64,000 nt of DNA from NCBI GenBank assembly GCA_964035015.1, contig OZ035997.1, forward strand, positions 24,186,834 through 24,250,833, written 5' to 3'. Each line of letters opens with the position of its first letter. Position 1 is the first letter of the stretch. The notes under the pieces were generated by a model that made no database searches, was not told where the DNA came from, and worked only from the letters and a program-made list of their open reading frames with translations. This document shows, piece by piece, positions 5,226 to 54,305 of this stretch. This stretch comes from Corallium rubrum. Lineage: Eukaryota > Cnidaria > Anthozoa > Scleralcyonacea > Coralliidae. A program made the translations under genes and the position numbers.

Positions 5226-5260
5226 AACTTTTGATATGTATATGTTTGAACGAAAACCGA

Positions 5261-5266
5261 AATAAA
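5261..5266 (+). terminator. Polyadenylation signal AATAAA after the ATPase gene
   Basis: AATAAA lies 36 bp past the ATPase stop codon and before the right purine/pyrimidine tract. Confidence 0.6.
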
Positions 5267-5317
5267 TATTTTTAAGCTAAATGCTTTTGTATGTATGTGT
5301 GTGTGTGTTTATTTGTT

Positions 5318-5476: not shown

Positions 5477-5531
5477 AAAATGTGTGTTTTGGTAGCGTTT
5501 TCCTCATTTAGACACTGACTGTCAAATAGAG

Positions 5532-5849: not shown

Positions 5850-5893
5850 AAGAACGATATTTTGTAAAGACCCTCATTCGAACCCTGAACACG

Positions 5894-6565
5894 ATGGGAG
5901 AAAGATTACATGATGATTTTCGTGTTAAAGAAATACTGTCACACTTTGACTACGGAGTCGATGAAGCGACAGCGTCTTCTTTGCTGAATAGTTTACTCGC
6001 GTCCTATGTCAACTTAACATGGAATCCCAAAGGAGAAATTGTGTATCAAGGAAGAACTATACCAAACACAAAAATAGCCGAATTGGTAGAATACTGCGTA
6101 TCACCTTACGTCTCAGGAATTCCCAAACCAGCTGGTCTAAATGTATTTGTAAAAGGACTCGCCGACATTAACATTGACAAAAACCTTATCGAAAATGTTC
6201 GAGTGCTGACAATGTTGGCGCAGGCAGAAGAAGAAACAGAATCAGAGAGCGAAAACGAAGAAACGTCCTCCGAAGATTCCGAACACGATAAAGATTACAC
6301 CGAAATAGAATCAGAAAATTCTATAATTGACGAACCTGTTGATTGCGAACGTTGTCAGAATCCTGTTAATTTTACACATGTAATTGAGTGTCCTACGTGT
6401 TTGTGGAAATATTTTAACAAATGTGTTATTCGAAATCTGATATGTAATGTTTGTGGTACAGAATTCAAGACTCATGATCCATGCCTTCGGATTATAAGAT
6501 GTACTGTATGCCCATATGCTAGTGTTACCGATAGATCACTAAATAATCAAGAGTTTTTTGTGTAA
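5894..6565 (+). CDS. Acidic CxxC zinc-binding protein of the Polinton-like element, right copy
   Basis: Second copy of the 223-residue protein with the acidic linker and four CxxC pairs, identical in translation to the left copy. It uses the ATG at 5894 and is followed by AATAAA at 6579-6584. Complete identity of both copies implies a recent duplication of the arm or ongoing sequence exchange between arms. Confidence 0.75.
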   Translation: MGERLHDDFRVKEILSHFDYGVDEATASSLLNSLLASYVNLTWNPKGEIVYQGRTIPNTKIAELVEYCVSPYVSGIPKPAGLNVFVKGLADINIDKNLIENVRVLTMLAQAEEETESESENEETSSEDSEHDKDYTEIESENSIIDEPVDCERCQNPVNFTHVIECPTCLWKYFNKCVIRNLICNVCGTEFKTHDPCLRIIRCTVCPYASVTDRSLNNQEFFV

Positions 6566-6578
6566 AGATATATTTCTC

Positions 6579-6584
6579 AATAAA
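6579..6584 (+). terminator. Polyadenylation signal AATAAA (right-arm 223-residue gene)
   Basis: Lies 14 bp after the stop codon; mirror of 2419-2424. Confidence 0.6.
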
Positions 6585-6960
6585 ATAGTTTAAATTCTGT
6601 ATTACATGTACGCGTGTTGTTAATGACTTTCTCGCCTAGACTTGCCCAAGCATTAATACCTCTTCATGCCCCTTATTATCCCCCAAAAAACTCATGATCA
6701 CCCCATAAATAATTACATATTCTACAGTATATGCAAATCCGGTTATATTTAGGTCATTAGTAACTTTAACGAGCTTTCCCTTTTGTGCTCTGCACGTGCA
6801 CTCAGGATAAATACGCAAATATCAGCCGTAGCAACAGAAAGCGTAGCAACGCTTTCAAAGTAATAAAGCGCTTTGGGTTTATATTTCCACACTTAAAATC
6901 GTTCTTCTTACGGCTTCTCGAATTGATTCTTCATCCAAGGATTCGTATACTCTATACACT

Positions 6961-29900: not shown

Positions 29901-32900
29901 CGGTTACTTACAGTTATCTGAGATGACAGTTGTGAACTTGCTCCTTTTAATGGTTCACTGGTGACTATATGGTGTCTGTTAAGTCTATAGACTACAAAAC
30001 GTTAATATAGAAAAAATAAGATCATGCGTTGATGAGAATGAATTTTGTAAATCAGATCAGATGGATAAAGTATACCGTAGAATCCCGCTTATAAGCCCCC
30101 GGTTATAAGCCCCCCAGTTATAAGCCCATCTGTTTGGTAATAGCCTGCGAAGCAGACGGTTGTTTTTTGGGGGTGGGTTTATTTTTGGGGGCAGGGTTTA
30201 TATTTGGGGTCGTGGAATACCGGAGGCGGAAAACCCGCATAGGCGGAATTACCCGCCAGGCGGAAAACACGCGAGGCGGAAAACACGCGAGGCGGAAAAC
30301 ACGCGAGGCGGAAAACCTGCGGGGCGAAGCTGAAAGACCGTCTGCCGGGTTTCGATATGTTTTTCGATATACCAGTCCGCTGGTGGACTGGAAAAACTGA
30401 TTGGCTAATAAACCATTAACTTGTCATCAGGGATTAACTTGTCATCATGTAATTACTGTAAATCTTTAATATATTATCGTATACATAGACTACATAGTTG
30501 CGATGGCGTCGACTGAATATAGTGAATATGTTGACGAAGCTTTTCGTTTGCTGAACTTGCTTGCAAGTCCCACACGGGAATTTATATTGAAGAAGGGACA
30601 AGAAATAGCAGTTAACGAGTTGCTGCAAGGGAAAGATGTTTTGGCAGTTTTACCGACTGGATTCGGGAAGAGTTTTATTTTTATCTTGTATTTGTTGGCA
30701 CGAAATGAGATGTCAAAACGAACCCAGGGAAATGTTCGTAGCTGCGTTCTTGTTGTGTCTCCTCTAAAGAGCATTATATCTGATCAGATATCAGAAGTGA
30801 CTTCATTTAATTGCACTGCAGCGGAGCTTTCAAAGGAAACTTTGTCTGAAATAATGGAATCCCCACCGCAATTCATATACTGTAGTGCGGATTCATATTC
30901 TGTTTTGTCCTTTGCCTTTCTGATTACGTGTACTTTTCTCGCTTGAGGACTTCGCTCAGGAGAACATACAGTGGTCGGTAGAAGGCGCTTTATCCTGTCA
31001 GTTGCTTTCACTTCAGCCTCGACTTTAGAGTTGACCAGATTAATTGAGGTTGATATGAATGCGTAAAGCTGGTTGGTATTCCTTATTTTACGCGCGCAAG
31101 ACTTACAAACCCGTTCCGACAACTCGGAATTTCTGTGAACAGAAATACCAAACTCCACGCAAAGTGCGCCCAAAGTTTTTTCGTTGAGGTCTTTCCTGTT
31201 CGATGTTTTGAACAGATTTTCCGAAGACACGTAGGACGTTTTTTCAAAATTTCCAAACTTAACCTTTAGTGGACACTTGCACAGTCTGCAAAAGTCGTTG
31301 ACACTTTCCGCTTTTGGTTTTCTTCCTTTGGGTACAGTTTTTGTTGGGGTAGCGCTCTTACTCATGACATGTACATCAGCATAAACATGATTCACAAAAA
31401 CGGTGGTGGGGTCAAAACATCAACATGTCAGGTATCATGTTTCACTTATAAGTGGCTTTCGAAATAATCCGATTTCAAGTAGCAAAGGGGCGTATATCGA
31501 AAAACATATCGAAACCCGGCAGACGGTCTTTCAGCTTCGACCCCGCGGGTTTTCCGCCTCGCGTGTTTTCCGCCTTTGCGGGTTTTCCGCCTCGCGTGTT
31601 TTCCGCCTTTGCGGGTTTTCCGCCTCGCGTGTTTTCCGCCTTTGCGGGTTTTCCGCCTCCGGTATTCCACGACCCCAAAAATAAACCCACCCCCAAAACA
31701 ACCGTCTGCTTCGCAGGCTATTTGGTAACAGAAAAGACCTTCCGGTTATAAGCCCTCCGGATATAAGCCCACCTTCCCATTAGCACATTTTATAGTAAAA
31801 ATAACAACGAAAAAAACAGAGAAACAGCGCAACTAACGTGCGATATTAAGCAAAACGTTGAGCAATAAAGTGCCAACATAGTTTGTCTGTTGCGTATTGA
31901 AACCTTTTTTCTATCCCGCTTATTAGCCCCCTGGTTATAAGCCACTCAAAAGTCAAAACCCCTTGCGAAGTTGTATAAGGCAAGCCCAGGGCTTATAAGC
32001 GGGATTCTACGTATACTGTATATGTATATATAAAGAATATAATTTTTGATGTCTGTTCAGCTTCAGTTAAACTACGCCGGTCACAAATAAACAATAATAT
32101 ATTACAATATAATCATGTTAATGATGTTATTGCCCATTTTCCCTATTATTATTAACTGAAACTGAACATATATACCATAAGATATAAGGAATATGTAAAC
32201 TAACCTTATCCACAGGTTTTGATAGTCCACCAAAATTAAGAAGCCGCTGCGATTTGTCGGCTACATCTTGAAACGTCGGTATCAGACCTTCATGTTTTGA
32301 TCGCTGATGATGTGCTACATTATCTCTGTTTAATACCTTGTCGCATCGCAAGCAAACGACGCGATTTCGATTTGATCGTTCAACTTTCCTACGTTTCATT
32401 GCATAGCAATGATTAGTGAATTCAAAATTAACACAACTTTCCCACAATTAGTCAATTATCCGTTCAAAACTCGGCTGAAAAGCGCAATGTAAGTGTAACT
32501 CTTAACGCATAAGAAAATATACGCGCGCTGTGTAAATAATGTTTTCTTTGTTATCTTATCGTGTATCATATTTCAAATTTAAACGACTGCGCGAGCGCAC
32601 GTGCTATTAAAAGCGAATTCGATAGTGTAAACAAACATTTTCTAAGCAGGAAACACAATGGGTTAGGTTAAAACGCGGATGCGGACGGACGGACGGACGG
32701 ACGGACGGACGGACGGACGGACGGACGGACGGACGGACGGACGGACGGACGGACGGACGGACGGACGGATATGAGGGTAAAACGCGGATATGAGCTTTTT
32801 ACCCTCATATCCGCGTTTTACCCTCATATCCGCGTTTTACCCTCATATCCGCGTTTTACCCTCATATCCGCGTTTTACCCTCGAGGTTAAAACGCGGATA

Positions 32901-35900
32901 CGGACGGACGGACGGGCGGACGGACGGACGGACGGACGGACGGACGGATATGAGGGTAAAACGCGGATATGAGCTTTTTACCCTCATATCCGCGTTTTAC
33001 CCTCATATCCGCGTTTTACCCTCATATCCGCGTTTTACCCTCATATCCGCGTTTTACCCTCATATCCGCGTTTTACCCTCATATCCGCGTTTTACCCTCG
33101 AGGGTAAAACGCGGATATGAGGGTAAAACGCGGATATGAGGGTAAAAAGCTCATATCCGCGTTTTACCCTCATATCCGTCCGTCCGTCCGTCCGTCCGTC
33201 CGTCCGTCCGTCCGTCCGTCCGTCCGTATCCGCGTTTTAACCTCGAGGGTAAAACGCGGATATGAGGGTAAAACGCGGATATGAGGGTAAAACGCGGATA
33301 TGAGGGTAAAAAGCTCATATCCGCGTTTTACCCTCATATCCGTCCGTCCGTCCGTCCGTCCGTCCGTCCGTCCGTCCGTCCGTCCGTCCGTCCGTATCCG
33401 CGTTTTAACCTAACCCGAAACACAATGCCAATTACTAGTGTAGTGCGTCGTCACTCGTCAGGGGGAGTTTAACTAAAATAATATGTCAAGCGCAATTAGG
33501 TTTGATCCGCGGCCGCTGCGTACGCAAGAAAATCAGACAAGAAAGAAAATATCTCTAGCCTTTCACATTTTAGCAGATATATCTACCTGATTTTCTTACT
33601 CGATTGTCACACAATTTTACCTGATTTTTTCGCACTGTCTCAATTGGGGTAGCACCCCCCCCCCCCCCCCCCCACACACCCCCGCTCGCTACGTCCCTGG
33701 GTATACTTTATAAGTGTTATTTTCTGCCGGCTGAGGAACGAAAGAGGCAGAAAATGTTTTTCACACACACTGCTGGGGGACTGGTCTAGAGTGGGGGCAG
33801 GGGGGGAAAGGTCACTTTTTGTTTTGCCTCGCTTGGCCTGACCTTTGTTTTCTTCGAGCGTGATTTTATGCAAATTTTGGTGATATATATCGGCAATCTT
33901 GGATTATTTGTTCTTCAATTGCCGTGCCAAAGCAAGCTTCTCATCCAGAGCGTTCAAAATCGGGTTCTAGAGCGTTACGGCGCTTGGAACCGTACAATGA
34001 AAGTCCAGCAAGCGAAGACGATCGGGGACATGGCTCGCGCCATTCGAGCGGGAAGAAATCGCATCGGTCGACAAGTTCTCACAGTCGTTCGAGGACACAC
34101 AGTCGCTCTCGTTCGCCAGCAAGGCCGCCGCAGTGGGCTAAAGAACTGTTAAAAAATCAGCAGGAAAATGTGAAGGAGTTAAAGCGTCTGAAAAGCGAGA
34201 TCGAACGGGGTCGAGCGTCGAATACAAGTAAACCCAACGTACGCGTACCAGAGCCGGCTTTTCGTTATGTTGGCAACAAGACGCAATACGAGTTGAATAA
34301 CAGCGTGGTTGACAAGATTGAAACGGCGCTAGCGACGAACGACGACCAGGAAAGAACGGCGGCATTAAACGAAGGTAAGAGCTTACTTTCAGAACGGAAC
34401 AAACATATTTTATTAGCGGAAAAATTCGGCTGGGATACGGTTGAATGCTATACTGCTGAACCTCTTGCCACCGATGCGGACGACGAAAAACGTATTAGAA
34501 AGGCGGTGAAGGAGAGCAAGCGCCTACGGGACGAGAAGAAAAAGAAATCAATGCCTTCAAATAAATCTAGGAGGCCGATTTCGTGGTCTGGCGGTTCATC
34601 CGAGCAGAAAGGTGTTGTCGATAGAGCCTCGTTTCCATCCTCACGAGGATTTCCGGCGGGAAAGTCCAGCATGACACGTAATTCGAGCGCTGTTTGTTTT
34701 CGTTGCCTCAGACCCGGCCACTTTGCCCGTGATTGCAGGGCAGCAAACACTCGAACAGTCACATTTAATGGAGCCCAGCCCAGTGGAGTCTCTTCACAGC
34801 CTGCCTCTCAGTGAGTGGGAGAAAGATAACTTTGTAAATATGAATAATACAGATACTGATATTGATGTTGAGGGTTCAAATGTTGTTTCGTTGGTTAATG
34901 TTGAAAACTTAGAGATTAACTCGTGTACAAAAGTTAAGGGACGACTACGGGAAAATATTTCATTCTGGGAGCACATTGGGGCTAACAGATGGGTGCTAGA
35001 GATTATTCGGGAAGGGTACTATCTACCGTTTATTGACATGCCTGAGAGAGTAGTATTGGCCAACCACAAGAGTGCTTTCGGGGCATCTGGTTTCGTATCA
35101 AGGAAAATCGAGAAACTTCTTTTATCGGGAGCTTTAGTTGAAGTAAAAGCACATGAGCTAACTGTTTGTAGCCCTTTGGGTGTAGTTTTTAATAACACTA
35201 AGAAGCCGAGGCTGATTCTGGACCTACGGTATGTGAACAAGCACTTACGGTCTTGCAAATTTCAATATGAGGACATTAGAACAGCTGCCAGTTTATTCAA
35301 AAAGGGGGATTGGTTTTTCAAATTTGACTATGTGAGTGGATATCATCATGTAGAGATTTTTCCAGAACATACCCAGTTTCTTGGTTGCTCATGGGACGTT
35401 AATGGTATCCAAAAATTCTATAAATTCACAGTCCTCCCATTTGGTCTGTCTACCGGCCCATATGTATTTTCTAGAATACAAAGAGCTTTAGTGAAGCACT
35501 GGAGGGAGAAGGGGTTCAGAATGTTTACTTACCTGGACGATGGTGCTGGAGCGGAGTCTAGCTTAGAGGAAGCACAGGAAACATCAGCTTTGGTGCAGCA
35601 GGACATTGCACAAAGTGGGTTTGTAGCTCATAAAGATAAGTGCCAATGGGAGCCCAGTCAGTCAGGAGAACTGCTTGGTTTTGTAATGGATTTACAGTCA
35701 GGTACATTTCGTGTTCCCCCAAGAAGAGTGCAATCCCTTGAAGCAGTACTCCAGGAAGTTGTCTCAAGAGGCTTCATTGCATCGGCTCGATGCCTTTCTC
35801 GGCTTACTGGTCTGTTAGTGTCAATGGGACTTGCGCTTGGCCCAGTGGTACGCCTCCGGACCAGAGGTCTATATCGGGAGATCCTTCAAGCCCCATCTTG

Positions 35901-38900
35901 GGATAATGTGTTTTTGCTTTCGGATGAAGCACAGAGGGAGGTGCAATTCTGGATTGAGAATTTCAGCAATAGTGGATATCCTATATGGTCCCCCAGTCCG
36001 AGAATCGAGGTTATGACTTACTCGGATGCCAGTGATACAGGTTGGGGTGGTTATGCAGTTCAGGTTGGTGATCAATCTGCTACTGGTGGTTGGTCGGAGG
36101 CTGACGGACAAAAGAGTTCAACATGTCAACATGGAGGGAGATAAGAGCTACTAGGCTAGTATTGGAGTCACTTGTACGCAGTCTTCAAGGAAAGGAAGTG
36201 CTTCACAGGACGGACAACATGAACACGGTGCGGATCCTGTCAGTAGGAAGCCGGAGGTGTGATCTACACCAGGAGGCGGTGGAGATTTACAAGTTTTGCC
36301 AGGCAAATAACATACGGTTATCGGTTGAGTGGGTGAGTAGGAATGATAATGAACAAGCGGATGCCTTATCAAGAACGGAGGATGCAAATGATTATAGTTT
36401 GGACCCCTTAGTGTTTACACGATTGGACAAGCGCTGGGGTCCTCACACAATTGATCGGTTTGCAAGCGTACAGACCAAGTTACTACCACGGTTCTGCAGT
36501 CGTTTCCTTAACCCCGGTTGTGAGGCGGTGGATGCCTTCACTATTTCTTGGGAGGGTGATAATAATTGGATTTTCCCCCCACCTTACCTGATCCCACGAG
36601 TGTTGCAACACATGGCAGAAGGAAAAGAATTTGGAACACTAATAGTACCAGAATGGCAGTCAGCTCCATGGTGGCCATTATTAGTTACGAGACAAGGATT
36701 ATGGCAAACCTTTGTCAAGGACTGTTGCAAACTGCAACAGTACGAGGGTATTCTGGTGCCTGGTTCAGCGGCAAGTAGCCAATTCGCTTCTGGTATACCT
36801 GCGTACTCCATCGTGGCTTTGAGGGTCAGCTTTGTGAGATGCATAGCATCGGTGAGTATTTGTCAAAGGACAAAAGAGCCTGTTAGGGGCAAAAAGCCTG
36901 TAAGGGGCAAACAGCCTGCAAGGGGCAAGAAGCCTGTTAGGGGCAAGAGGCCTGTAAGGGGCAAACAGCCTGTAAGGGGCAAACAGCCTGTAAGGGGCAA
37001 AAAGCCTGTTAGGGGCAATAAGCCTGTTAGGGGCAATAAGCCTGTTAGGGGCAAAAAGCCTGTAAGGGGCAAACAGCCTGTAAGGGGCAAAAGCCTGTTA
37101 GGGGCAAGAAGCCTGTTAGGGGTAAGAGGCCCGTTAGGGGCAAGAAGCCCGTTAGGGGCAAAGGGCCCAGTAGGGGCAAAGAGCCCATTAGGGGCAAAGA
37201 GCCTGTAGGGGCAGGGAGCCTGTAGGGGCTAAGAGCCTGTTAAGGGCAGTTACAGTCTAGATACGGACAGGTTATGCCGTTGTGTAACTGGTTGTGTTTT
37301 TCAGTTGCAGTGGTGCAAGTAGTGGCAGAGGATGTGGTTTTACCAGCAAGTCTTCAACCCACACGTTTTGAAGATCCAGATTTAGCCCATTTGGCCCACA
37401 TGTTACCTGGTATTTTGGTGCAAGACAGGGCAGAAAAAACGGTGAACACTTATATTAGTGCATATCGTAGATGGAAGCAGTGGGCCACGCAACATGGGGT
37501 AGTGGCCTTACCAGCAGACCCAGTACCATTTGCTTTGTATCTAGTCTATCTGATCCAGCAAGTCAGATCAGTGGCCTCAATTAACTCAATAGTGTATGGT
37601 GTTAGCTGGGTACACAAGAAAGGTGGTTTCCCGGAACCTTCACAGCAACCCTTGGTGAAGCAGATTATGGAGGCAGCAAGGGTATCCTGGCGAAAGCAGC
37701 AACGCGAAAGACTCCCTTCGATACGGACTTGGTACGGAGATTGGTGCAACGATTACAGCAAGGTAACCTGGCGGAGCTGCAGTTGGCAACATTGATTTCG
37801 TTGGGGTTTTTTGGTTTTCTTCGATGGGACGACCTAAGTAATCTGACATGTGACAGTGTCCATTTTGAAGGGTCACATATTGCTTTGTTTTTGGAGAAAC
37901 GAAAAAATGACCAGTTCAGAGAGGGTTCGTGGGTATTCATTTCCAGCTCAGATGGACAGCCGTGCCCAGTAGCAGTAGTGAGGAAATTTGTGGAACAAGG
38001 TCGCCACAAGACAGGATCCAAGTTATTTCGACGAGTCCAGCATACAAAGAACAGTTGGATACTGAAAGAGCAAGGAATGTCCTATAGTCGTGCCAACCAA
38101 CTGCTCAAGGTGGAGTTAAAGAAGGAGGGATTGGACGACAGGTGTTATAGCATACATAGCTTACGTTCGGGGGGAGCTTCAGCAGCAGCGGCGTTGGGGG
38201 TGCCGGACCGGTTAATTCAACGACAGGGTGGATGGAGGAGTGCAACAGCTAAGAACAATTACCTCAATGAAACTCTGGACTCATTGTTATTAGTAACAAA
38301 ATCTATTCAAAATTAAGAACACTTATATAAGGTTGTACACTACTGAACTTTGAGGGAGCTAGTACACTCTATGTGTTTTGCTTTGCGGGTGAAGCATCCC
38401 ACACGGCAGTGTGTGTGAAGTGTTATTTTCTGCCGGCTGAGGAACGAAAGAGGCAGAAAATGTTTTTCACACACACTGCTGGGGGACTGGTCTAGAGTGG
38501 GGGCAGGGGGGGAAAGGTCACTTTTTGTTTTGCCTCGCTTGGCCTGACCTTTTCCCACCCACCCACCCTTGGTCAGCCACAGCCAGGAATAATGAGGTTA
38601 TTGAATTTTATAAGTTTTGGGTTCCAGTTCTGGTAAAGTAGTTGGTTCATGATATTTAGACTGGGACATCTTGTAAATAGTTTGAGAGTTTAAGTTTATT
38701 AAAGGTCAGGGTTGCGGGTGAAGCATCCCACACGGCAGTGTGTGTGAAATCCCAGAAGACATTTGACTCACAGACATATGTTAACTAGCATATATATTAA
38801 GCTGATGAAAACACAACAGATTTATATTACAAAGACCGATTTTAATTATAAATGATTTAAATTCAAATTGTACACAAGTGACGTACAAATCAAAGATCAA

Positions 38901-39079: not shown

Positions 39080-39090
39080 CACTGAATCGG

Positions 39091-39359
39091 AAGAGGTTAG
39101 ATGGGATGACTCTCTGGGACCTTTTCCGAAGATGTAGCCTTACGAAGCATGGATTTTAACGAAAACCTATCCCAATACCCCCCTAACCCTAACCCCCTAA
39201 CCCTAATCTCAAAAGTGTGGAAAGTGCCCGGCCTTAATATAGTCGCCAATTTGTGGTCCACAACTGTTTCCAAAGATTGTGGGATGCGCAGTAAAGTTCA
39301 ATACGTCACTTGGCGCAGCCTTCCAAAAAGGTCCCAGAGAGTCATCCCATCTAACTTCT
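39091..39359. repeat. Foldback repeat with CCCTAA units just upstream of DHRSX
   Basis: About 35-bp inverted arms (GGTTAGATGGGATGACTCTC and its reverse complement) at 39091-39130 and 39320-39359. Between them are several telomere-like CCCTAA units (39181-39210). It starts only 12 bp 5' of the DHRSX ATG, so it forms the 5' UTR or core promoter region. Confidence 0.8.
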
Positions 39360-39543
39360 ACCCACTGAATCACTCTCGAGTCACGAGCCCACGAGCACAA
39401 CAAATACTTCAGCGTTGTCATGTGTGAGCGGGTAGGTACTTCATGTTAGGGTACATATAGTGGTTATATATATATTTAATAGTATACGCTTATGACATAT
39501 AGTGGTACTTACATTATGACATATAGTGGTACTTACATTATAG

Positions 39544-42500
39544 TTGTTACAACTTATACTTTATTCTTTCCATGCTTTATATACTTTACCTGCTTTATAT
39601 GCTTTACCTGCTTTATATGCTTTATATGCTTTATATGCTTTACCTGCTTTATATGCTTTATATGCTTTATATGCTTTATATGCTTTACCTGCTATATATG
39701 CTTTACCTGCTTTATATGCTTTACATGCTTTATATGCTTTATATGCTTTACCTGCTTTACGTGCTTTATATGCTTTATATGCTTTAATTGCTTTATATGC
39801 TTTACCTGCTTTATATGATTTATATGCTTTACCTGCTTTATATGCTTTATACGCTTTACCTGCTTTATATGCTTTACCTGATTTATATGCTTTATATGCT
39901 TTACCTGCTTTATATGCTTTACCTGCTTTATATGCTTTATATGCTTTACCTGCTTTATATGCTTTACCTGCTTTATATGCTTTACCTGCTTTATATGCTT
40001 TATATGCTTTATATGCTTTACCTGCTATATATGCTTTACCTGCTTTATATGCTTTACATGCTTTATATGCTTTATATGCTTTACCTGCTTTACGTGCTTT
40101 ATATGCTTTATATGCTTTAATTGCTTTATATGCTTTACCTGCTTTATATGATTTATATGCTTTACCTGCTTTATATGCTTTATACGCTTTACCTGCTTTA
40201 TATGCTTTACCTGATTTATATGCTTTATATGCTTTACCTGCTTTATATGCTTTACCTGCTTTATATGCTTTATATGCTTTACCTGCTTTATATGCTTTAC
40301 CTGCTTTATATGCTTTACCTGCTTTATATGCTTTACCTGCTTTATATGCTTTACCTGCTTTATATGCTTTACCTGCTTTATATGCTTTACCTGCTTTATA
40401 TGCTTTATATGCTTTACCTGCTTTATATGCTTTATATGCTTTATATGCTTTACCTACTTTATATGCTTTATATGCTTTATATGCTTTATATGCTTTATAT
40501 GCTTTATATGCTTTATATGCTTTACGTGCTTTATATGCTTTACGTGCTTTATATGCTTTATATGCTTTACCTGCTTTATATGCTTTATATGCTTTACCTG
40601 CTTTATATGCTTTACCTGCTTTATATGCTTTATATGCTTTACCTGATTTATATGCTTTATATGCTTTACCTGCTTTATATGCTTTACCTGCTTTATATGC
40701 TATACCTGCTTTATATGCTTTACCTGCTTTATATGCTTTACCTGCTTTATATGCTTTATATGCTTTACCTGCTTTATATGCTTTACCTGCTTTATATGCT
40801 TTATATGCTTTACCTGCTTTACCTGCTTTATATGCTTTATATGCTTTATATGCTTTATATGCTTTATATGCTTTATCTGCTTTACCTGCTTTATATGCTT
40901 TACCTGCTTTACCTGCTTTATATGCTTTATATGCTTTACCTGCTTTATATGCTTTATATGCTTTACCTGCTTTATATGCTTTACCTGCTTTATATGCTTT
41001 ATATGATTTACTTGCTTTATCTGCTTTACCTGCTTTATATGCTTTACCTGCTTTACCTGCTTTATATGCTTTACCTGCTTTATATGCTTTATATGATTTA
41101 CTTGCTTTATCTGCTTTACCTGCTTTATATGCTTTACCTGCTTTACCTGCTTTATATGCTTTATATGCTTTACCTGCTTTGTATGCTTTATATGCTTTAC
41201 CTGCTTTATATGCTTTACCTGCTTTATATGCTTTACCTGCTTTATATGCTTTACCTGCTTTATATGCTTTATCTGCTTTACCTGCTTTATATGCTTTACC
41301 TGCTTTATCTGCTTTACCTGCTTTATATGCTTTACCTGCTTTATAGGCTTTATATGCTTTATATGCTTTATATGCTTTATATGCTTTACCTGCTTTATAT
41401 GCTTTACTTGCTTTATATGCTTTACCTGCTTTATATGCTTTATATGCTTTACCTGCTTTACCTGCTTTACCTGCTTTATATGCTTTACCTGCTTTATATG
41501 CTTTACCTGCTTTATATGCTTTACCTGCTTTATATGCTTTATATGCTTTACCTGCTTTATATGCTTTATATGCTTTATATGCTTTATATGCTTTACCTGC
41601 TTTATATGCTTTATATGCTTTATATGCTTTATATGCTTTACCTGCTTTACCTGCTTTATATGCTTTATATGCTTTATATGCTTTATCTGCTTTACCTGCT
41701 TTATATGATTTACCTGCTTTACCTGCTTTATATGCTTTATCTGCTTTACCTGCTTTATATGCTTTACCTGCTTTATCTGCTTTACCTGCTTTATATGCTT
41801 TACCTGCTTTATATGCTTTATATGCTTTATATGCTTAATATGCTTTATATGCTTTACCTGCTTTATATGCTTTACCTGCTTTTTATATGCTTTACCTGCT
41901 TTATATGCTTTATCTGCTTTACCTGCTTTATATGCTTTATATGCTTTACCTGCTTTACCTGCTTTATATGCTTTATATGCTTTATATGCTTTACCTGCTT
42001 TATATGCTTTACCTGCTTTATATGCTTTACCTGCTTTATATGCTTTATATGCTTTACCTGCTTTATATGCTTTATATGCTTTATATGCTTTATATGCTTT
42101 ATATGCTTTACCTGCTTTATATGCTTTATATGCTTTATATGCTTTATATGCTTTATATGCTTTACCTGCTTTATATGCTTTACGTGCTTTATATGCTTTA
42201 TGTGCTTTACCTGCTTTACCTGCTTTATATGCTTTATATGCTTTACCTGCTTTATATGCTTTACTTGCTTTATATGCTTTACCTGCTTTATATGCTTTAT
42301 ATGCTTTACCTGCTTTACCTGCTTTACCTGCTTTATATGCTTTATATGCTTTATATGCTTTACCTGCTTTATATGCTTTACCTGCTTTATATGCTTTACC
42401 TGCTTTATATGCTTTATATGCTTTACCTGCTTTATATGCTTTATATGCTTTATATGCTTTATATGCTTTACCTGCTTTATATGCTTTATATGCTTTATAT

Positions 42501-45500
42501 GCTTTATATGCTTTACCTGCTTTACCTGCTTTATATGCTTTATATGCTTTATATGCTTTATATGCTTTATATGCTTTATCTGCTTTACCTGCTTTATATG
42601 ATTTACCTGCTTTACCTGCTTTATATGCTTTATCTGCTTTACCTGCTTTATATGCTTTACCTGCTTTATCTGCTTTACCTGCTTTATATGCTTTACCTGC
42701 TTTATATGCTTTATATGCTTTATATGCTTTATATGCTTAATATGCTTTATATGCTTTACCTGCTTTATATGCTTTACCTGCTTTTTATATGCTTTACCTG
42801 CTTTATATGCTTTATCTGCTTTACCTGCTTTATATGCTTTATATGCTTTACCTGCTTTACCTGCTTTATATGCTTTATATGCTTTACCTGCTTTATATGC
42901 TTTACCTGCTTTATATGCTTTACCTGCTTTATATGCTTTATATGCTTTACCTGCTTTATATGCTTTATATGCTTTATATGCTTTATATGCTTTATATGCT
43001 TTACCTGCTTTATATGCTTTACGTGCTTTATATGCTTTATGTGCTTTACCTGCTTTACCTGCTTTATATGCTTTATATGCTTTACCTGCTTTATATGCTT
43101 TACCTGCTTTACCTGCTTTATATGCTTTACCTGATTTATATGCTTTATATGCTTTACCTGCTTTATATGCTTTACCTGCTTTATATGCTTTACCTGCTTT
43201 ATATGCTTTATATGCTTTATATGCTTTATATGCTTTACCTGCTTTATATGCTTCATATGCTTTATATGCTTTATATGCTTTATATGCTTTACCTGCTTTA
43301 TATGCTTTACGTGCTTTATATGCTTTATGTGCTTTACCTGCTTTACCTGCTTTATATGCTTTATATGCTTTACCTGCTTTATATGCTTTACCTGCTTTAC
43401 CTGCTTTATATGCTTTACCTGATTTATATGCTTTATATGCTTTACCTGCTTTATATGCTTTACCTGCTTTATATGCTTTACCTGCTTTATATGCTTTACC
43501 TGCTTTATATGCTTTACCTGCTTTATATGCTTTATATGCTTTACCTGCTTCATATGCTTTACCTGCTTTACCTGCTTTACCTGCTTTATATGCTTTATAT
43601 GCTTTACCTGCTTTACCTGCTTTATATGCTTTATATGCTTTATATGCTTTATCTGCTTTATCTGCTTTATATGCTTTATATGCTTTACCTGCTTTACCTG
43701 CTTTATATGCTTTATATGCTTTACCTGCTTTATATGCTTTACCTGCTTTATATGCTTTATCTGCTTTATATGCATTATATGCTTTACCTGCTTTATCTGC
43801 TTTACCTGCTTTATATATGCTTTACCTGCTTTACCTGCTTTATATGCTTTATATGCTTTACCTGCTTTGTATGCTTTATATGCTTTACCTGCTTTATATG
43901 CTTTACCTGCTTTATATGCTTTACCTGCTTTGTATGCTTTACCTGCTTTATATGCTTTATCTGCTTTACCTGCTTTATATGCTTTACCTGCTTTATATGC
44001 TTTATATGCTTTACCTGCTTTACCTGCTTTATATGCTTTATATGCTTTATATGCTTTATATGCTTTATCTGCTTTACCTGCTTTATATGATTTACCTGCT
44101 TTACCTGCTTTATATGCTTTATATGCTTTACCTGCTTTATATGCTTTATATGCGTTACCTGCTTTATATGCTTTACCTGCTTTATATGCTTTACCTGCTT
44201 TATATGCTTTACCTGCTTTGTATGCTTTACCTGCTTTATATGCTTTATCTGCTTTACCTGCTTTATATGCTTTACCTGCTTTATCTGCTTTACCTGCTTT
44301 ATATGCTTTACCTGCTTTATATGCTTTATATGCTTTATATGCTTTATATGCTTTACCTGCTTTATATGCTTTACCTGCTTTTTATATGCTTTACCTGCTT
44401 TATATGCTTTATCTGCTTTACCTGCTTTATATGCTTTATATGCTTTACCTGCTTTATATGCTTTATATGCTTTACCTGCTTTATATGCTTTATATGCTTT
44501 ACCTGCTTTATATGCTTTACCTGCTTTATATGCTTTACCTGCTTTATATGCTTTATATGCTTTACCTGCTTTATATGCTTTATATGCTTTATATGCTTTA
44601 TATGCTTTATATGCTTTACCTGCTTTATATGCTTTATATGCTTTACCTGCTTTATATGCTTTACCTGCTTTATATGCTTTACCTGCTTTATATGCTTTAC
44701 CTGCTTTATGTTTACTGCTTTATATGCTTTTATATGCTTTACCTGCTTTATATGCTTTACCTGCTTTATATGCTTTACCTGCTTTATATGCTTTACCTGC
44801 TTTATATGCTTTACCTGCTTTTATGCTTTATCTGCTTTACCTGCTTTATATGCTTTACCTGCTTTATATGCTTTACCTGCTTTATATGCTTTACCTGCTT
44901 TATATGCTTTACCTGCTTTATATGCTTTACCTGCTTTATATGCTTTACCTGCTTTATATGCTTTACCTGCTTTATATGCTTTATATGCTTTATGCTTTAT
45001 ATGCTTTATATGCTTTATATGCTTTACATGCTTTATATGCTTTATATGCTTTATATGCTTTATATGCTTTATATGCTTTATATGCTTTATATGCTTTACA
45101 TGCTTTATATGCTTTATATGCTTTACCTGCTTTATATGCTTTATATGCTTTATATGCTTTACCTGCTTTATATGCTTTACCTGCTTTATATGCTTTACTT
45201 TACCTGCTTTATATGCTTTATATGCTTTACCTGCTTTATATGCTTTATATGCTTTATATGCTTTATATGCTTTACCTGCTTTATATGCTTTATATGCTTT
45301 ATATGCTTTACCTGCTTTACCTGCTTTATATGCTTTATATGCTTTATATGCTTTATATGCTTTATCTGCTTTACCTGCTTTATATGATTTACCTGCTTTA
45401 CCTGCTTTATATGCTTTATATGCTTTACCTGCTTTATATGCTTTATATGCGTTACCTGCTTTATATGCTTTACCTGCTTTATATGCTTTACCTGCTTTAT

Positions 45501-46735
45501 CTGCTTTACCTCCTTTATATGCTTTACCTGCTTTATATGCTTTATCTGCTTTACCTGCTTTATATGCTTTACCTGCTTTATCTGCTTTACCTGCTTTATA
45601 TGCTTTACCTGCTTTATATGCTTTATATGCTTTATATGCTTTATATGCTTTACCTGCTTTATATGCTTTACCTGCTTTTTATATGCTTTACCTGCTTTAT
45701 ATGCTTTATCTGCTTTACCTGCTTTATATGCTTTATATGCTTTACCTGCTTTACCTGCTTTATATGCTTTATATGCTTTATATGCTTTACCTGCTTTATA
45801 TGCTTTACCTGCTTTATATGCTTTACCTGCTTTATATGCTTTATATGCTTTACCTGCTTTATATGCTTTATATGCTTTATATGCTTTATATGCTTTATAT
45901 GCTTTACCTGCTTTATATGCTTTATATGCTTTATATGCTTTACCTGCTTTATATGCTTTACGTGCTTTATATGCTTTATGTGCTTTACCTGCTTTACCTG
46001 CTTTATATGCTTTATATGCTTTACCTGCTTTATATGCTTTACCTGCTTTACCTGCTTTACCTGCTTTATATGCTTTACCTGCTTTATATGCTTTATATGC
46101 TTTATATTCTCTACCTGCTTTATATGCTTTACCTGCTTTATATGCTTTATATGCTTTATATTCTCTACCTGCTTTATATGCTTTACCTGCTTTATATGCT
46201 TTATATGCTTTACCTGCTTTATATGCTTTATATGCTTTATATGCTTTACATGCTTTATATGCTTTATATGCTTTATATGCTTTATATGCTTTATATGCTT
46301 TATATGCTTTATATGCTTTACATGCTTTATATGCTTTATATGCTTTACCTGCTTTATATGCTTTGTATGCTTTATACGCTTTACCTGCTTTATATGCTTT
46401 ATACGCTTTATACGCTTTATACGCTTTACCTGCTTTATATGCTTTATATGCTTTATATGCTTTATATGCTTTACATGCTTTATATGCTTTATATGCTTCA
46501 TATGCTTTACCTGCTTTACTTGCTTTACCTGCTTTATATGCTTTATATTCTCTACCTGCTTTATATGCTTTATATGCTTTACCTGCTTTATATGCTTTAT
46601 ATGCTCTACCTGCTTTATATGCTTTATATGCTTTATATGCTTTACCTGCTTTATATGCTTTACCTGCTTTATATGCTTTACCTGCTTTATATGCTTTATA
46701 TACTTTATATGCCTTATCTGCTTTATATGCTTTAT
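39544..46735 (+). repeat. Left arm: array of two 9-bp units
   Basis: About 800 units of TTTATATGC (A) and TTTACCTGC (B), mixed irregularly, with rare variants (TTTATCTGC, TTTACGTGC, TTTACATGC, TTTAATTGC). A and B differ by TA versus CC only. Larger copies are superimposed, for example a 333-bp block duplicated in tandem (39691 and 40024). The array is open in five of six frames because 9 is a multiple of 3. Confidence 0.97.
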
Positions 46736-46769
46736 ATATCAGGCTTTATCATGCTTGTTGTGCTTTATG

Positions 46770-46978
46770 TGATAGTTCAAACACAAGGAAGAGCATTTCA
46801 TCCGATATCCAAACACCTCTAAGTTGGTTAAAAAACTTGGCCTAAGGCCTCGTTTTTCAACCCACTTCTTGGGTTTGGTTATCGGATGAAACACTCTTTC
46901 GAGTGTTTGATATGTTGCTTCTCAGACGAATCAGTGTTTAAAGAGAAAATCAAGGTAAAAGTTGGCTTAATTTATGTA
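46770..46978 (-). repeat. Dispersed ~300-bp repeat family, copy 3 (left of centre)
   Basis: Reverse complement of 47494-47705 with few differences. Contains GTTTGAACTATCACATAAAGC, GGATATCGGATGAAA and TTGAAAAACGAGGCCTTAGG. Confidence 0.85.
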
Positions 46979-47493
46979 ATAAGTGATATTGGGCATTTCA
47001 CTCGATTACATAGCATGTTCTAAGGATTTTTGGGTGAAGGAAAATTCGAGTGTAGAATATCTACATTTTAAGACCAAACCGGATCCAGTTGCGAAAAATG
47101 CAACTACACAGGCCTTCCGGCAGGAATTGAACCCACGACCTTGCGATTCTAGTGCAATGCTCTGACCACTGAGCCACGGAGGGCGTTGCCGAGAGCTTGA
47201 TCGCGAGTTCTGTATATATAATAAGGTGGTAATGCCAGGAGAGAATTGGGTATATTATAAGTGATATTGGGCATTTCACTCGATTACATAGCATGTTCTA
47301 AGGATTTTTGGGTGAAGGAAAATTCGAGTGTAGAATATATAAATTTTAAGACCAAACCGGTTATGTAAGTTGCTTCCTCCGATATCCAAACCTCCATGAT
47401 ACGTAATTCATAATTCTCAAACTCATTAGTAATTCATAACATAAAAACAAAGGAAATCAGTACCGAGAATGGAGGTTTGGATATCCGAGGAAG
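46979..47493. other. Central spacer of the palindrome
   Basis: Non-mirrored ~515 bp. Contains a direct repeat of ~110 bp (46982-47090 and 47258-47360, both with GTGATATTGGGCATTTCACT) around a tRNA-like sequence. Confidence 0.8.
47111..47184 (-). tRNA. tRNA-like relic in the palindrome centre
   Basis: Minus strand: acceptor CCCTCCG/CGGAAGG pairs at 6 of 7 positions, D arm GCTC/GAGC, loop CTAGAAT (anticodon AGA), T loop TTCAATT. A true tRNA-Ser would need a long variable arm, which is absent, so this is more likely a tRNA-derived repeat or pseudogene. Confidence 0.4.
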
Positions 47494-47705
47494 CAACTTA
47501 CATAAATTAAGCCAACTTTCACCTTGATTTTCTCTTTGAACACTGATTCGTCTGAGAAGCAACATATCAAACACTCGAAAGAGTGTTTCATCCGATAACC
47601 AAACCCAAGAAGTGGGTTGAAAAACGAGGCCTTAGGTCAAGTTTTTTAACCAACTTAGAGGTGTTTGGATATCGGATGAAATGTTCTTCCTCGTGTTTGA
47701 ACTAT
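47400..47705 (+). repeat. Dispersed ~300-bp repeat family, copy 4 (right of centre)
   Basis: Full-length copy: TCAAACTCATTAGTAATTCA, AAGGAAATCAGTACCGAG, TTACATAAATTAAGCCAACT, then the hairpin core, ending GAACTATCACATAAAGCACA directly before the right array. Confidence 0.85.
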
Positions 47706-47739
47706 CACATAAAGCACAAGCATGAAAAAGCCTGATATA

Positions 47740-50700
47740 TAAAGCAGATAAAGCATATAAAGCAGGTAAAGCATATAAAGCATATAAAGCATATAAAGCA
47801 GGTAAAGCATATAAAGCATATAAAGCATATAAAGCATATAAAGCAGATAAAGCATATAAAGCATATAAAGCATATAAAGCATATAAAGCATATAAAGCAT
47901 ATAAAGCATATAAAGCAGGTAAAGCAGGTAAAGCATATAAAGCATATAAAGCAGGTAAAGCATATAAAGCAGGTGAAGCATATAAAGCATATAAAAGCAT
48001 ATAAAGCAGGTAAAACATATAAAGCATATAAAGCATATAAAGCAGGTAAAGCATATAAAGCATATAAAGCATATAAAGCATATAAAGCATATAAAGCATA
48101 TAAAGCATATAAAGCATATAAAGCATATAAAGCATATAAAGCATATAAAGCATATTAAGCATATAAAGCAGGTAAAGCAGGTAAAGCAGGTAAAGCAGGT
48201 AAAGCAGGTAAAGCATATAAAGCATATAAAGCAGGTAAAGCATATAAAGCATATAAAGCAGGTAAAGCATATAAAGCATATAAAGCAGGTAAAGCATATA
48301 AAGCAGGTAAAGCAGGTAAAGCATATAAAGCATATAAAGCAGGTAAAGCATATAAAGCATATAAAGCATATAAAGCAGGTAAAGCATATAAAGCATATAA
48401 AGTTTATAAAGCATATAAAAAAAAAAGCAGGTAAAGCATATAAACATATAAAGCATATAAAGCAGGTAAAGCATATAAAGCAGGTAAAGCATATAAAGCA
48501 GGTAAAGCAATATAAAGCAGGTAAAGCATATAAAGCAGGTAAAGCATATAAAGCATATAAAGCATATAAAGCATATAAAGCATATAAAGCATATAAAGCA
48601 GGTAAAGCATATAAAAACATAAAGTAGGTAACATATAAAGCAGGTAAAGCATATAAAGCATATAAAGCATAAAAAGCATATAAAAGCATATAAAGCATAT
48701 TAAGCATATAAAGCAGGTAAAGCAGGTAAAGCAGGTAAAGCAGGTAAAGCATATAAAGCATATAAAGCAGGTTATAAAGTATATAAAGCATATAAAGCAT
48801 ATAAAGCATATAAAGCATATAAAGCAGGTAAAGCATATAAAGCATATAAAGCATATAAAGCAGATAAAGCATATAAAGCATATAAAGCATATAAAGCATA
48901 TAAAGCATATAAAGCATATAAAGCAGATAAAGCATATAAAGCATATAAAAGCAGGTAAAGCATATAAAAAGCATATAAAGCAGGTAAAGCATATAAAGCA
49001 TATAAAAGTATAAAAGCAGGTAAAGCATATAAAGCATATAAAGCATATAAAGCATATAAAAGCATATAAAGACATATAAAGGTAAAGCATATAAAGCATA
49101 TAAAGCATAACAGATATAAAGCATATAAAGCATATAAAGCATATAAAAAAAGCATATAAAGCATATATAAAGCAAAATGCTATATAAAGCATATAAAGCC
49201 CATATAATAAACATATAAAACATATAAAGAAGACATATAAAAACATATAAAGCATATAAAGCATATAAAGCAGGTAAAGCAGGTAAAGCAGGTAAAGCAT
49301 ATAAGAAAAGCATATAAAGCATATAAAGCATATAAAAGCATATAAAGCATATAAAGCAGAATTAAAGCATATAAAGCATAAAGCATATAAAGCAGGTAAA
49401 GCATATAAAGCATATAAAGCAGTAAAGTATATAAAACATATAAAGCATATAAAGTAGGTGCATATAAAGCATATAAAGCATATAAAGCATATAAGCATAT
49501 AAAAGCAGGTAAAGCATATAAAGCATATAAACATATAAAGCATATAAAGCATATAAAGCATATAGAAAGCATATAAAGCATATAAAGCATATAAAAGCAG
49601 GTAAAGCATATAAAGCAGGTAAAGCATATAAAGCATATAAAGCATATAAAGCATATAAAGCATATAAAGCATATAAAGCATATAAAGCAGGTAAAGCATA
49701 TAAAGCAGGTAAAGCATATAAAGCAGGTAAAGCATATAAAGCATATAAAGCATATAAAGCAGATAAAGCATATAAAGCAGGTAAAGCATACAAAGCATAT
49801 AAAGCAGGTAAAGCATATAAAGCAGGTAAAGCATATAAAGCATATAAAGCATATAAAGCATATAAAACATATAAAGCATATAAAGCAGTTAAAGCATATA
49901 AAGTATATAAAGCATATAAAGCAGGTAAAGCATATAAAGCAGGTAAAGCATATAAAGCATATAAAGCATATAAAGCATATAAAGCATATAAAGCATATAA
50001 AGCAGGTAAAGCATATAAAGCATATAAAGCATATAAAGCAGGTAAAGCATATAAAGCATATAAAGCAGGTAAAGCATATAAAGCATATAAAGCATATAAA
50101 GCAGGTAAAGCAGGTAAAGCATATAAAGCAGGTAAAGCATATAAAGCAGGTAAAGCATATAAAGCATATAAAGCATATAAAGCATATAAAGCATATAAAG
50201 CATATAAAGCATATAAAGCATATAAAGCATATAAAGCATATAAAGCAGGTAAAGCATATAAAGCATATAAAGCATATAAAGCATATAAAGCATATAAAGC
50301 ATATAAAGCATATAAAGCATATAAAGCATATAAAGCAGGTAAAGCATATAAAGCATATAAAGCAGGTAAAGCATATAAAGCAGGTAAAGCATATAAAGCA
50401 TATAAACATACTTTATATAAAGCATATAAACATATAAAGCAGGTAAAGCATAAAGCAGGTAAAGTTATATAAAGCATATAAAGCATATAAAGCAGGTAAA
50501 GCATATAAAGCATATAAAGCATATAAAGCATATATATAAAGCATATAAAGCATATAAAGCAGGTAAAGCATATAAAGCATATAAAGCATATAAAATATAT
50601 AAAGCATATAAAGCATATAAAGCATATAAACAGGTAAAAAAGTATATAAAGCAGATATAAACATATAAACATATAAAGCATACAAAGCATATAAACATAT

Positions 50701-53700
50701 AAAGCATATAAAGCATATAAAGCATAATTAAAGCAGGTAAAGCAGGTAAAGCATATATAAAGCATATAAAGCAGGTAAGCAGGTAAAGCATATAAAGCAT
50801 ATAAAGCATAAAGCAGGTAAAGCATATAAAGCAGGTAAAGCATATAAAGCAGGTAAAGCATATAAAGCATATAAAGCATATAAAGCATATAAAGCATATA
50901 AAGCATATAAAGCAGGTAAAGCATATAAAGCAGGTAAAGCATATAAAGCATATAAAGCATATAAAGCAGGTAAAGCATATAAAGCATATAAAGCATATAA
51001 AGCATATAAAGCATATAAAGCAGGTAAAGGTAAAGCATATAAAGCATATAAAGCATATAAAGCAGGTAAAGCATATAAAGCAGGTAAAACATATAAAAGC
51101 AGGTAAAGCATATAAAGCAGGTAAAGCATATAAAGCATATAAAGCATATAAAGCATATATAAAGCAGGTAAAGCATATAAAGCAGGTAAAGCATATAAAG
51201 CAGGTAAAGCATATAAAGCATATAAAGCATATAAAGCATATAAAGCATATAAAGCATATAAAGCAGGTAAAGCATATAAAGCATATAAAGCATATAAAGC
51301 AGGTAAAGCATATAAAGCATATAAAGCAGGTAAAGCATATAAAGCAGGTAAAGCATATAAAGCAGGTAAAGCATATAAAGCATATAAAGCAGGTAAAGCA
51401 TATAAAGCATATAAAGCATATAAAGCAGGTAAAGCATATAAAGCATATAAAGCATATAAAGCATATAAAGCAGGTAAAGCATATAAAGCATATAAAGCAT
51501 ATAAAGCATATAAAGCATATAAAGCATATAAAGCAGGTAAAGCATATAAAGCAGGTAAAGCATATAAAGCAGGTAAAGCATATAAAGCATATAAAGCATA
51601 TAAAGCATATAAAGCATATAAAGCATATAAAGCATATAAAGCAGGTAAAGCATATAAAGCAGGTAAAGCATATAAAGCAGGTAAAGCATATAAAGCATAT
51701 AAAGCATATAAAGCATATAAAGCATATAAAGCATATAAAGCATATAAAGCAGGTAAAGCATATAAAGCAGGTAAAGCATATAAAGCAGGTAAAGCATATA
51801 AAGCATATAAAGCAGGTAAAGCATATAAAGCAGGTAAAGCATATAAAGCATATAAAGCATATAAAGCAGGTAAAGCATATAAAGCATATAAAGCAGGTAA
51901 AGCATATAAAGCATATAAAGCATATAAAGCATATAAAGCATATAAAGCAGGTAAAGCAGGTAAAGCATATATAAAGCAGATAAAGCATATAAAGCAGGTA
52001 AAGCATATAAAGCAGGTAAAGCATATAAAGCAGGTAAAACATATAAAGCAGATAAAGCATATAAAGCAGGTAAAGCATATAAAGCACGTAACGCATATAA
52101 AGCAGATAAAGCATATAAAGCAGGTAAAGCATATAAAGCAGATAAAGCATATAAAGCAGGTAAAGCATATAAAGCAGGTAAAGCATATAAAGCAGGTAAA
52201 GCATATAAAGCAGGTAAAGCATATAAAGCAGGTAAAGCATATAAAGCAGGTAAAGCATATAAAGCAGGTAAAGCATATAAAGCAGGTAAAGCATATAAAG
52301 CAGATAAAGCAGGTAAAGCATATAAAGCAGGTAAAGCATATAAAGCAGGTAAAGCATATAAAGCAGGTAAAGCATATAAAGCAGGTAAAGCATATAAAGC
52401 AGGTAAAGCATATAAAGCAGGTAAAGCATATAAAGCAGGTAAAGCATATAAAGCAGGTAAAGCATATAAAGCAGGTAAAGCATATAAAGCAGGTAAAGCA
52501 TATAAAGCAGGTAAAGCATATAAAGCAGGTAAAGCATATAAAGCATATAAAGCAGGTAAAGCATATAAAGCAGGTAAAGCATATAAAGCATATAAAGCAG
52601 GTAAAGCATATAAAGCATATAAAGCAGGTAAAGCATATAAAGCAGGTAAAGCATATAAAGCATATAAAGCAGGTAAAGCATATAAAGCAGGTAAAGCATA
52701 TAAAGCATATAAAGCATATAAAGCATATAAAGCATATAAAGCAGGTAAAGCATATAAAGCAGGTAAAGCATATAAAGCATATAAAGCATATAAAGCATAT
52801 AAAGCAGGTAAAGCATATAAAGCAGGTAAAGCATATAACGCAGGTAAAGCATATAAAGCATATAAAGCAGGTAAAGCATATAAAGCAGGTAAAGCATATA
52901 AAGCAGGTAAAGCATATAAAGCAGGTAAAGCATATAAAGCATATAAAGCAGGTAAAGCATATAAAGCAGGTAAAGCATATAAAGCATATAAGCAGGTAAA
53001 GCATATAAAGCATATAAAGCAGGTAAAGCAGGTAAAGCATATAAAGCAGGTAAAGCAGATAAAGCATATAAAGCAGGTAAAGCATATAAAGCAGGTAAAG
53101 CATATAAAGCATATAAAGCAGGTAAAGCATATAAAGGAGGTAAAGCATATAAAGCATATAAAGCATATAAAGCAGGTAAAGCATATAAAGCAGGTAAAGC
53201 ATATAAAGCAGGTAAAGCATATAAAGCATATAAAGCAGGTAAAGCATATAAAGCAGGTAAAGCATATAAAGCAGGTAAAGCATATAAAGCATATAAAGCA
53301 GGTAAAGCATATAAAGCAGGTAAAGCATATAAAGCATATAAAGCAGGTAAAGCATATAAAGCAGGTAAAGCATATAAAGCAGGTAAAGCATATAAAGCAG
53401 GTAAAGCATATAAAGCATATAAAGCAGGTAAAGCATATAAAGCATATAAAGCAGGTAAAGCAGGTAAAGCATATAAAGCAGGTAAAGCAGATAAAGCATA
53501 TAAAGCAGGTAAAGCATATAAAGCAGGTAAAGCATATAAAGCATATAAAGCAGGTAAAGCATATAAAGCAGGTAAAGCATATAAAGCATATAAAGCATAT
53601 AAAGCATATAAAGCATATAAAGCAGGTAAAGCATATAAAGCAGGTAAAGCATATAAAGCAGGTAAAGCATATAAAGCATATAAAGCAGGTAAAGCATATA

Positions 53701-54160
53701 AAGCAGGTAAAGCATATAAAGCATATAAAGCAGGTAAAGCATATAAAGCAGGTAAAGCATATAAAGCATATAAAGCAGGTAAAGCATATAAAGCATATAA
53801 AGCAGGTAAAGCATATAAAGCAGGTAAAGCAGATAAAGCATATAAAGCAGGTAAAGCATATAGAGCAGGTAAAGCATATAAAGCATATAAAGCAGGTAAA
53901 GCATATAAAGCAGGTAAAGCATATAAAGCATATAAATCAGGTAAAGCATATAAAGCAGGTAAAGCATATAAAGCATATAAATCAGGTAAAGCATATAAAG
54001 CATATAAAGCAGGTAAAGCATATAAAGCAGGTAAAGCATATAAAGCATATAAAGCAGGTAAAGCATATAAAGCATATAAAGCAGGTAAAGCATATAAAGC
54101 ATATAAAGCAGATAAAGCAGGTAAAGCATATAAAGCAGGTAAAGTAGATAAAGCATGGAA
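47740..54160 (-). repeat. Right arm: array of two 9-bp units (inverted)
   Basis: About 700 units; on the plus strand GCATATAAA (A) and GCAGGTAAA (B). Between about 48400 and 50760 there are many 1-5 nt indels that break the 9-bp register. From about 52140 to 52540 the array is a near-perfect AB 18-bp dimer. The unit order is not the mirror image of the left arm. Confidence 0.97.
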
Positions 54161-54305
54161 AGAATAAAGTATAAGTTGTAACAACTATAATGTAAGTACC
54201 ACTATATGTCATAATGTAAGTACCACTATATGTCATAAGCGTATACTATTAAATATATATATAACCACTATATGTACCCTAACATGAAGTACCAACCTGT
54301 GAGCG

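Follow-up and report, generated by a model that had tools for sequence, protein, structure and literature searches.

Inverted 9-bp satellite arms in a likely foldback-type transposon family of Corallium rubrum

A 64,000-nucleotide stretch of the Corallium rubrum genome (assembly GCA_964035015.1, contig OZ035997.1; hereafter the window, by which we mean the whole stretch) contains a 14.9-kb element at positions 39431-54297 in which two long arrays of a 9-bp satellite face each other in inverted orientation. We conclude with high confidence that this element is one copy of a young, non-autonomous family of foldback-type DNA transposons. An earlier note on this DNA had proposed that two divergent genes are separated here by a mobile element whose satellite arms are inverted and which is flanked by target-site duplications (TSDs) of 8 bp; the coordinates that it gave are right to the base, and the existence of a family with the same ends, architecture and TSDs strongly supports the proposal. 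Furthermore, the content of the arrays is common to separate insertions, and most insertion sites have a short directional word at a fixed distance outside the TSD.

The window element and its relatives

The window's own assembly (474 Mb in 312 contigs) was searched with two queries taken from the outer terminal inverted repeats (TIRs). The left end of the window element together with 30 bases of flank gave 40 scored matches from 94 first-look candidates, and the end of another copy gave 40 from 91. Scored matches to both queries were 97-100% identical and many lay in inverted pairs 3 to 22 kb apart. For the left-end query, 39 of the 40 scored matches start at window position 39430, 39431 or 39432, and the remaining one is the window's own copy, where the flank matches too. 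Among the complete copies read at both ends, the window included, 20 of 22 are flanked by a perfect 8-bp TSD. Matches that start at the proposed end, combined with these duplications, rule out chance. The earlier note had suggested a search for further copies that share these ends and duplications, and the assembly does contain them. From the numbers of candidates we would guess that the family has some 45 elements.

All 14 copies that were read through have the same plan, in which an outer TIR is followed by a satellite array, a core, an inverted array and a second outer TIR, and in each of them both arrays are made of the same 9-bp unit in inverted orientation. The features that define foldback elements are therefore all found here: long inverted arms with tandem direct repeats (14 of 14), dispersed copies with TSDs, and a repeat number that varies between copies and between arms. 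Across 26 arms of 13 copies, arm lengths range from 0.79 to 7.2 kb, the two arms of the window element being the longest, and left and right lengths have a rank correlation of 0.49 (p 0.09). Two core types can be distinguished. A short palindromic core is found in the window element and in copies C28a, C23a and C13a, as well as in C30a, where it has added material. A larger core of up to ~3 kb is found in C25a, C20a, C22b, C8a, C12a, C22a, C30b and C1b; C15, absent from the 40 scored matches of a further search, is a deletion form of this larger type.

The features of the window copy are as follows:

39410-39414, + strand: target motif CAGCG, outside the TSD, starting 13 nt before it in this copy
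39423-39430, no strand: left TSD copy, TGTGAGCG (8 bp)
39431-39571, + strand: left outer TIR, 141 bp, starting GGTAGGTACTTCATG
39490-39541, + strand: subterminal direct repeat of 24 bp, 2.2 copies, containing the word ACATATAGTGGT
39572-46737, + strand: left 9-bp satellite array, mainly TGCTTTATA / TGCTTTACC units, 7166 bp
46738-46979, + strand: left inner core arm, with 96% identity to the reverse-complemented right inner arm; also in other family members
46980-47360, no strand: nested insertion in the core, with ~103-bp direct repeats from 46980 and 47258 around a tRNA-like stretch
47111-47183, - strand: tRNA-Ser-like stretch in the nested insertion
47498-47736, - strand: right inner arm of the core
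47737-54156, - strand: right 9-bp satellite array, inverted relative to the left one, 6420 bp
54157-54297, - strand: right outer TIR, 141 bp, with a single mismatch to the left one over the aligned 141 bp, at TIR base 4 (GGTTGG for GGTAGG)
54298-54305, no strand: right TSD copy, TGTGAGCG, matching the left copy at 8/8 bases

The 999-bp core between the arrays is itself largely an inverted repeat with inner arms of ~240 bp each. Its nested insertion is flanked by a duplication of TTATGTAA (46972-46979 and 47361-47368), and when this insertion is removed the inverted repeat runs nearly to a short loop. With the core, the arrays and the TIRs all inverted, the window element should be able to fold back over almost its entire length. 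Array boundaries are alike on both sides, the window has no runs of N, and the four satellite dimer patterns that we checked are confined to the element within the window. The subterminal 24-bp repeat and the three ACATATAGTGGT words of the TIR are possible transposase-binding sites.

Copies of the family differ little. Across the family, outer TIRs measure ~132-143 bp, and in 38 of 53 aligned TIRs at most two alignment columns depart from the consensus; the eight larger-type cores compared differ pairwise at 9 to 50 positions in 2,336 ungapped columns. As far as sequence divergence can tell, the family is young. Its members also appear to exchange sequence. At 28 sites that separate the cores of C8a and C25a, the core of C51b agrees 12 times with C8a and 16 times with C25a, for the most part over consecutive sites, a mosaic that suggests gene conversion between copies. 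The flanks of C8a and C51b are identical at 151 of 152 bases and similarity extends at 99.6-99.7% over 1,500 and 755 bp, so that these two copies are probably one locus in two haplotypes or a duplication, filled in both cases. We also observed that, with nearly the same flanks, C8a and C51b have different TIR variants, which could reflect either gene conversion or separate insertions of two elements at one base.

Array history and its alternatives

The window element and C28a have nearly the same 999-bp core, together with its nested insertion, at 99.9% identity and in opposite orientation. The TIR variant GGTT, which is at the right end in the window, is at the left end in C28a; an inverted core predicts this swap, and the single difference between the two ends has thus been inherited. 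The arms tell the same story. Corresponding arms of these two insertions have 0.72 and 0.58 of their 45-mers in common, compared with 0.17 for the two arms of the window element and 0.26 for those of C28a, and shuffling the units of one arm brings the value under 0.01 for both elements. Exact blocks of at least 120 bp total 4,406 and 3,675 bp between corresponding arms, 1,428 and 157 bp within the respective elements, and 839 and 403 bp between non-corresponding arms. Array content that is common to corresponding arms of separate insertions indicates that the element already contained the satellite when its last jumps took place. At the same time, the arms of the window element (7166/6420 bp) exceed the corresponding arms of C28a (4995/4276 bp) by 2,171 and 2,144 bp. 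Judged from these comparisons, the array moves with the element while its length keeps changing. The nested insertion at 46980-47360 likewise entered the element before the window copy and C28a diverged.

The earlier note had left two origins side by side, a foldback-type element that moves with its array and a miniature inverted-repeat transposable element (MITE) whose interior expanded after insertion. The shared array content supports the first. The second, in which a short MITE inserted and its interior grew into satellite arms only afterwards at this locus, draws on the fact that array length differs between very close copies and must therefore change quickly. However, it would have to account for both arrays, with the same unit in inverted orientation, in every copy read through, for common content in corresponding arms of separate insertions, and for array boundaries that are the same on the two sides in the window. 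We consider it very improbable. Missed adapters and hairpin reads do give near-perfect inverted ends, but the idea that such an assembly or read artefact made a false inverted arm is hardly credible, since the two window arms differ in length, in content (0.17 of 45-mers in common) and at TIR base 4, and since 20 of 22 copies, located at various loci, are bounded by TSDs.

Several observations weigh against the view that this is a transposon family that carries its arrays, or narrow it. The copies studied are the best matches to two TIR queries and not a random sample. Two TSDs are imperfect, that of C23a matching at 7/8 bases and that of C164 at 3/8. The earlier note had suggested looking for an empty site between the flanking genes in other individuals or related species; in this assembly none turned up, as a query made of both window flanks joined together has no match beyond the two flanks of the filled site. 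The first 9 kb of C140, read from its left end, have one array, no inverted partner, no second TIR and no recognised open reading frame (ORF). C51c and C164 were read as 800-base samples, and satellite was present in 1 of 6 and 2 of 4 of these, respectively. The size of the large copies C22b, C30a and C1b is partly due to other nested material. No transposase was recognised in the copies read, where six ORFs of one copy were scanned against Pfam and the cores were not searched systematically. Finally, the two arms of one element are similar in C12a, C30a and C1b (0.69, 0.45 and 0.39 of 45-mers in common), implying that arms are sometimes homogenised.

We envision a scenario in which a transposase encoded elsewhere would recognise the outer TIRs, with the three ACATATAGTGGT words, and the whole palindromic unit would be cut out and inserted with an 8-bp staggered cut. 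Slippage or unequal exchange would later alter the length of the arrays, and gene conversion would pass sequence between copies. In this family, transposition moves inverted pairs of 9-bp satellite arrays, up to 7 kb long, to new locations, a process relevant to the spread of satellites through chromosome arms. With arms that differ by ~2 kb each between two copies whose 999-bp cores are 99.9% identical, the family can also serve as a natural clock that times how satellites grow and shrink. Long palindromes should be unstable, which makes a family that retains them a useful test case.

Target sites and flanking genes

The sequence outside the TSD was compared at 20 independent sites. C51b was left out because its flanks are those of C8a, although it has the motif described here, and C164 was left out because it lacks a TSD; the TAGCGG at -22 in its right flank is not counted. 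At 16 of the 20 sites the word CAGCG or CTGCG, reading towards the element, has its first base precisely at -22 relative to the element and 14 nt away from the TSD. The six-base form CAGCGG or CTGCGG is found at -22 at 14 sites and leaves 8 nt up to the TSD. When -22 and -21 are counted together the number rises to 17 of 20, the added site being the window, where the word is one base closer. The same two-offset test at control offsets from -78 to -31 gave a mean of 0.23 sites and a maximum of 2, and in the reverse orientation the motif has no peak at the 20 sites. The consensus is close to (W)GGTCAGCGGT. The motif is one-sided, lying to the left of some copies and to the right of others, with C22b having it on both sides, at -21 and -22. 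By eye, C30b and C12b are inserted at the same base of two similar sequences.

The sites may also resemble promoters. They have 7.3 CpG per 152 bp compared with 4.9 in the window background, and 8 of 20 have, on either strand within 152 bp, one of the words ATGGCGG, ATGGCGC or ATGGCCG, which we take to be YY1-like and which occur in 3.7% of background windows. We tentatively propose a directional target-recognition step, in which the insertion complex finds GGTCAGCGGT in promoter-like DNA and docks there, with the TSD fixed 8 nt beyond CAGCGG, and in this way scatters kilobase-long palindromic satellites into gene promoters; we regard this as quite possible, if a little short of probable. The complex, or a host factor bound to it, would contact the target word near (W)GGTCAGCGGT on one side, and such a one-sided contact would make the TSD start 8 nt beyond CAGCGG. 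Three points speak against a general rule of this kind. The motif is absent at 3 of the 20 sites (C28b, C28c and C20b), among copies seen at one end only it is at -22 in 4 of 9, and the background for both the CpG counts and the promoter words was cut from the 64-kb window only.

A competing explanation, which we think rather unlikely without dismissing it, is that the motif is read not by the transposase but by a host factor sitting in open promoter chromatin, and that the element inserts beside this factor. The excess of CpG and YY1-like words at insertion sites would fit such a factor. So would the fact that the motif is unlike the element's own TIR: the target matrix scores 9.9 to 18.4 at the 17 sites used and at best 1.5 in the TIR. 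Base-exact spacing at 16 of 20 sites, by contrast, points to a rigid complex. The pattern would be no different, however, if a host factor were tightly attached to the transposase, so exact spacing does not decide against the host factor. A target word at a fixed distance outside the TSD offers a model, open to testing, of how a eukaryotic DNA transposon selects its targets.

Two other ideas about the target were tried and rejected. A single binding domain for target and TIR is not supported, as the best TIR score of 1.5 lies below the median of 2.0 for shuffled TIRs. Palindromic targets are not the rule either, since only 2 of 20 sites, C22b and C28c, are at the centre of a long palindrome. 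As a separate observation, the stems at or near the palindrome centre measure 43 for C28c and 19 for C22b, compared with a mean of 5.3 and a maximum of 38 in a background of 600 windows.

In the window, a preference for promoter-like targets would place the element between divergent genes, as is seen. The earlier note had called these genes DHRSX and SDAD1. An exon of the right-hand gene matches the PDB entry "Protein SDA1 homolog" (E 2.3e-09); the name DHRSX, for the left-hand gene, comes from that note alone. One ORF of the left-hand gene (20070-20447) matches PDB chain 3rd5_A (E 1.4e-08), whose listed name states no function and which we take to be a short-chain dehydrogenase. The insertion stops 111 bp short of the presumed SDA1-homolog start codon (54416), a distance consistent with a promoter target. 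To the left of the foldback element lies a second short element (39080-39371), with inverted ends GGWAGARGTTAGATGGG, a body at 39089-39362, a 9-bp duplication of CACTGAATC (39080-39088 and 39363-39371) and telomere-like CCCTAA repeats inside; it adjoins the presumed start codon of the left gene.

Superfamily, known systems and other repeats

The termini are GG in 52 of 53 aligned TIRs, the right end of C28c being the exception. TSDs of 8 bp, as observed here, are found also in hAT and P elements; hAT termini are of the CAG type, but those of this family read GGTWGG. An 8-bp TSD also falls within the 8-10 bp of Mutator (MULE) elements, a comparison of the TSD alone. Both the GG ends and the TSD length fit Merlin elements, for which the available portion of one account gives terminal GG, 8- or 9-bp TSDs and tandem repeats inside several families (PMC8101967). 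Assignment to the Merlin superfamily, with movement by a Merlin transposase, is therefore possible, but we would not favor it: the TSD length fits hAT and P as well, and the foldback element Tetris, which has 8-10 bp TSDs, was placed by its authors in Mutator (PMC4079207). The available portion of the Merlin account describes no foldback plan.

A candidate autonomous partner, the 19.4-kb copy C22b, was rejected, as we take its additional 9.7-kb block to be a separate nested element with its own ends CTCAGG...CCTGAG. That nested element, with ends CTCAGGKGCATTAATGCCTGGGTC, lies by eye between TA dinucleotides in the left satellite array of C22b and encodes a protein kinase domain and a 701-amino-acid ORF with no Pfam match below E 0.15. 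C30a and C1b have ORFs that are presumably reverse-transcriptase-like.

FB elements of Drosophila and TU elements of sea urchin are built on the foldback plan, and their inverted outer domains contain short tandem repeats. The view of the earlier note that no described class has such a body does not hold, since tandem repeats in long inverted ends are also found in Galileo, Tetris and Tm1; our comparison with these systems draws on the available portions of the reports cited. Tetris of Drosophila virilis (PMC4079207) is apparently non-autonomous, with an outer flanking domain, tandem repeats and an inner domain in each inverted arm, and resembles our family in its 8-10 bp TSDs, varying repeat number and link to satellite arrays. 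It differs in having a unit of ~220 bp and TIRs of up to 1,735 bp, whereas the C. rubrum element has a 9-bp unit and arms of up to 7.2 kb, and the portion available names no fixed target word outside the TSD. Galileo, a foldback-like member of the P superfamily (PMC3573991, PMC3688188), similarly has long TIRs with internal repeats, the number of which changes on one side independently of the other, and exchanges sequence among copies; its repeats are, however, ~210 bp long, with up to three copies in one subfamily, and it has a P-type transposase with a THAP domain. Tm1, a Mutator/foldback element of root-knot nematodes (PMC3169594), is like our family in its composite multi-domain TIRs, varying number of ~14-bp repeats and nested elements, and differs in its 9-bp TSDs, MULE transposase and asymmetric 7-bp terminal motifs. 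Links between mobile elements and satellites are known more generally (PMC9659126, PMC5139131). In the open-access literature covered, a small part of the whole and available in portions, we found no description of this family, of multi-kilobase arms with a 9-bp unit or of a directional target word. The foldback plan with tandem repeats in inverted arms is thus known; the arm length, the very short unit and the fixed-distance target motif, which the earlier note had not noticed, are unusual.

The window contains several other repeats. An element at 33712-38552 has 135-bp direct repeats that are 100% identical (33712-33846 and 38418-38552) and ORFs that we take to encode a reverse transcriptase and a tyrosine recombinase, as in DIRS-like elements. 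Another palindromic satellite, at 32682-33411, is made of CGGA and TTTTACCCTCATATCCGCG units in alternating opposite orientations. At 2043-6960, an inverted repeat of ~1.64 kb (2043-3677 and 5317-6960, 98.8% identical) flanks much of a 601-amino-acid stop-free frame, which contains what we presume to be a P-loop-like stretch. Lastly, a 199-bp satellite with ~14.7 units and 94% matches occupies 61084-64000 and runs off the end of the window.

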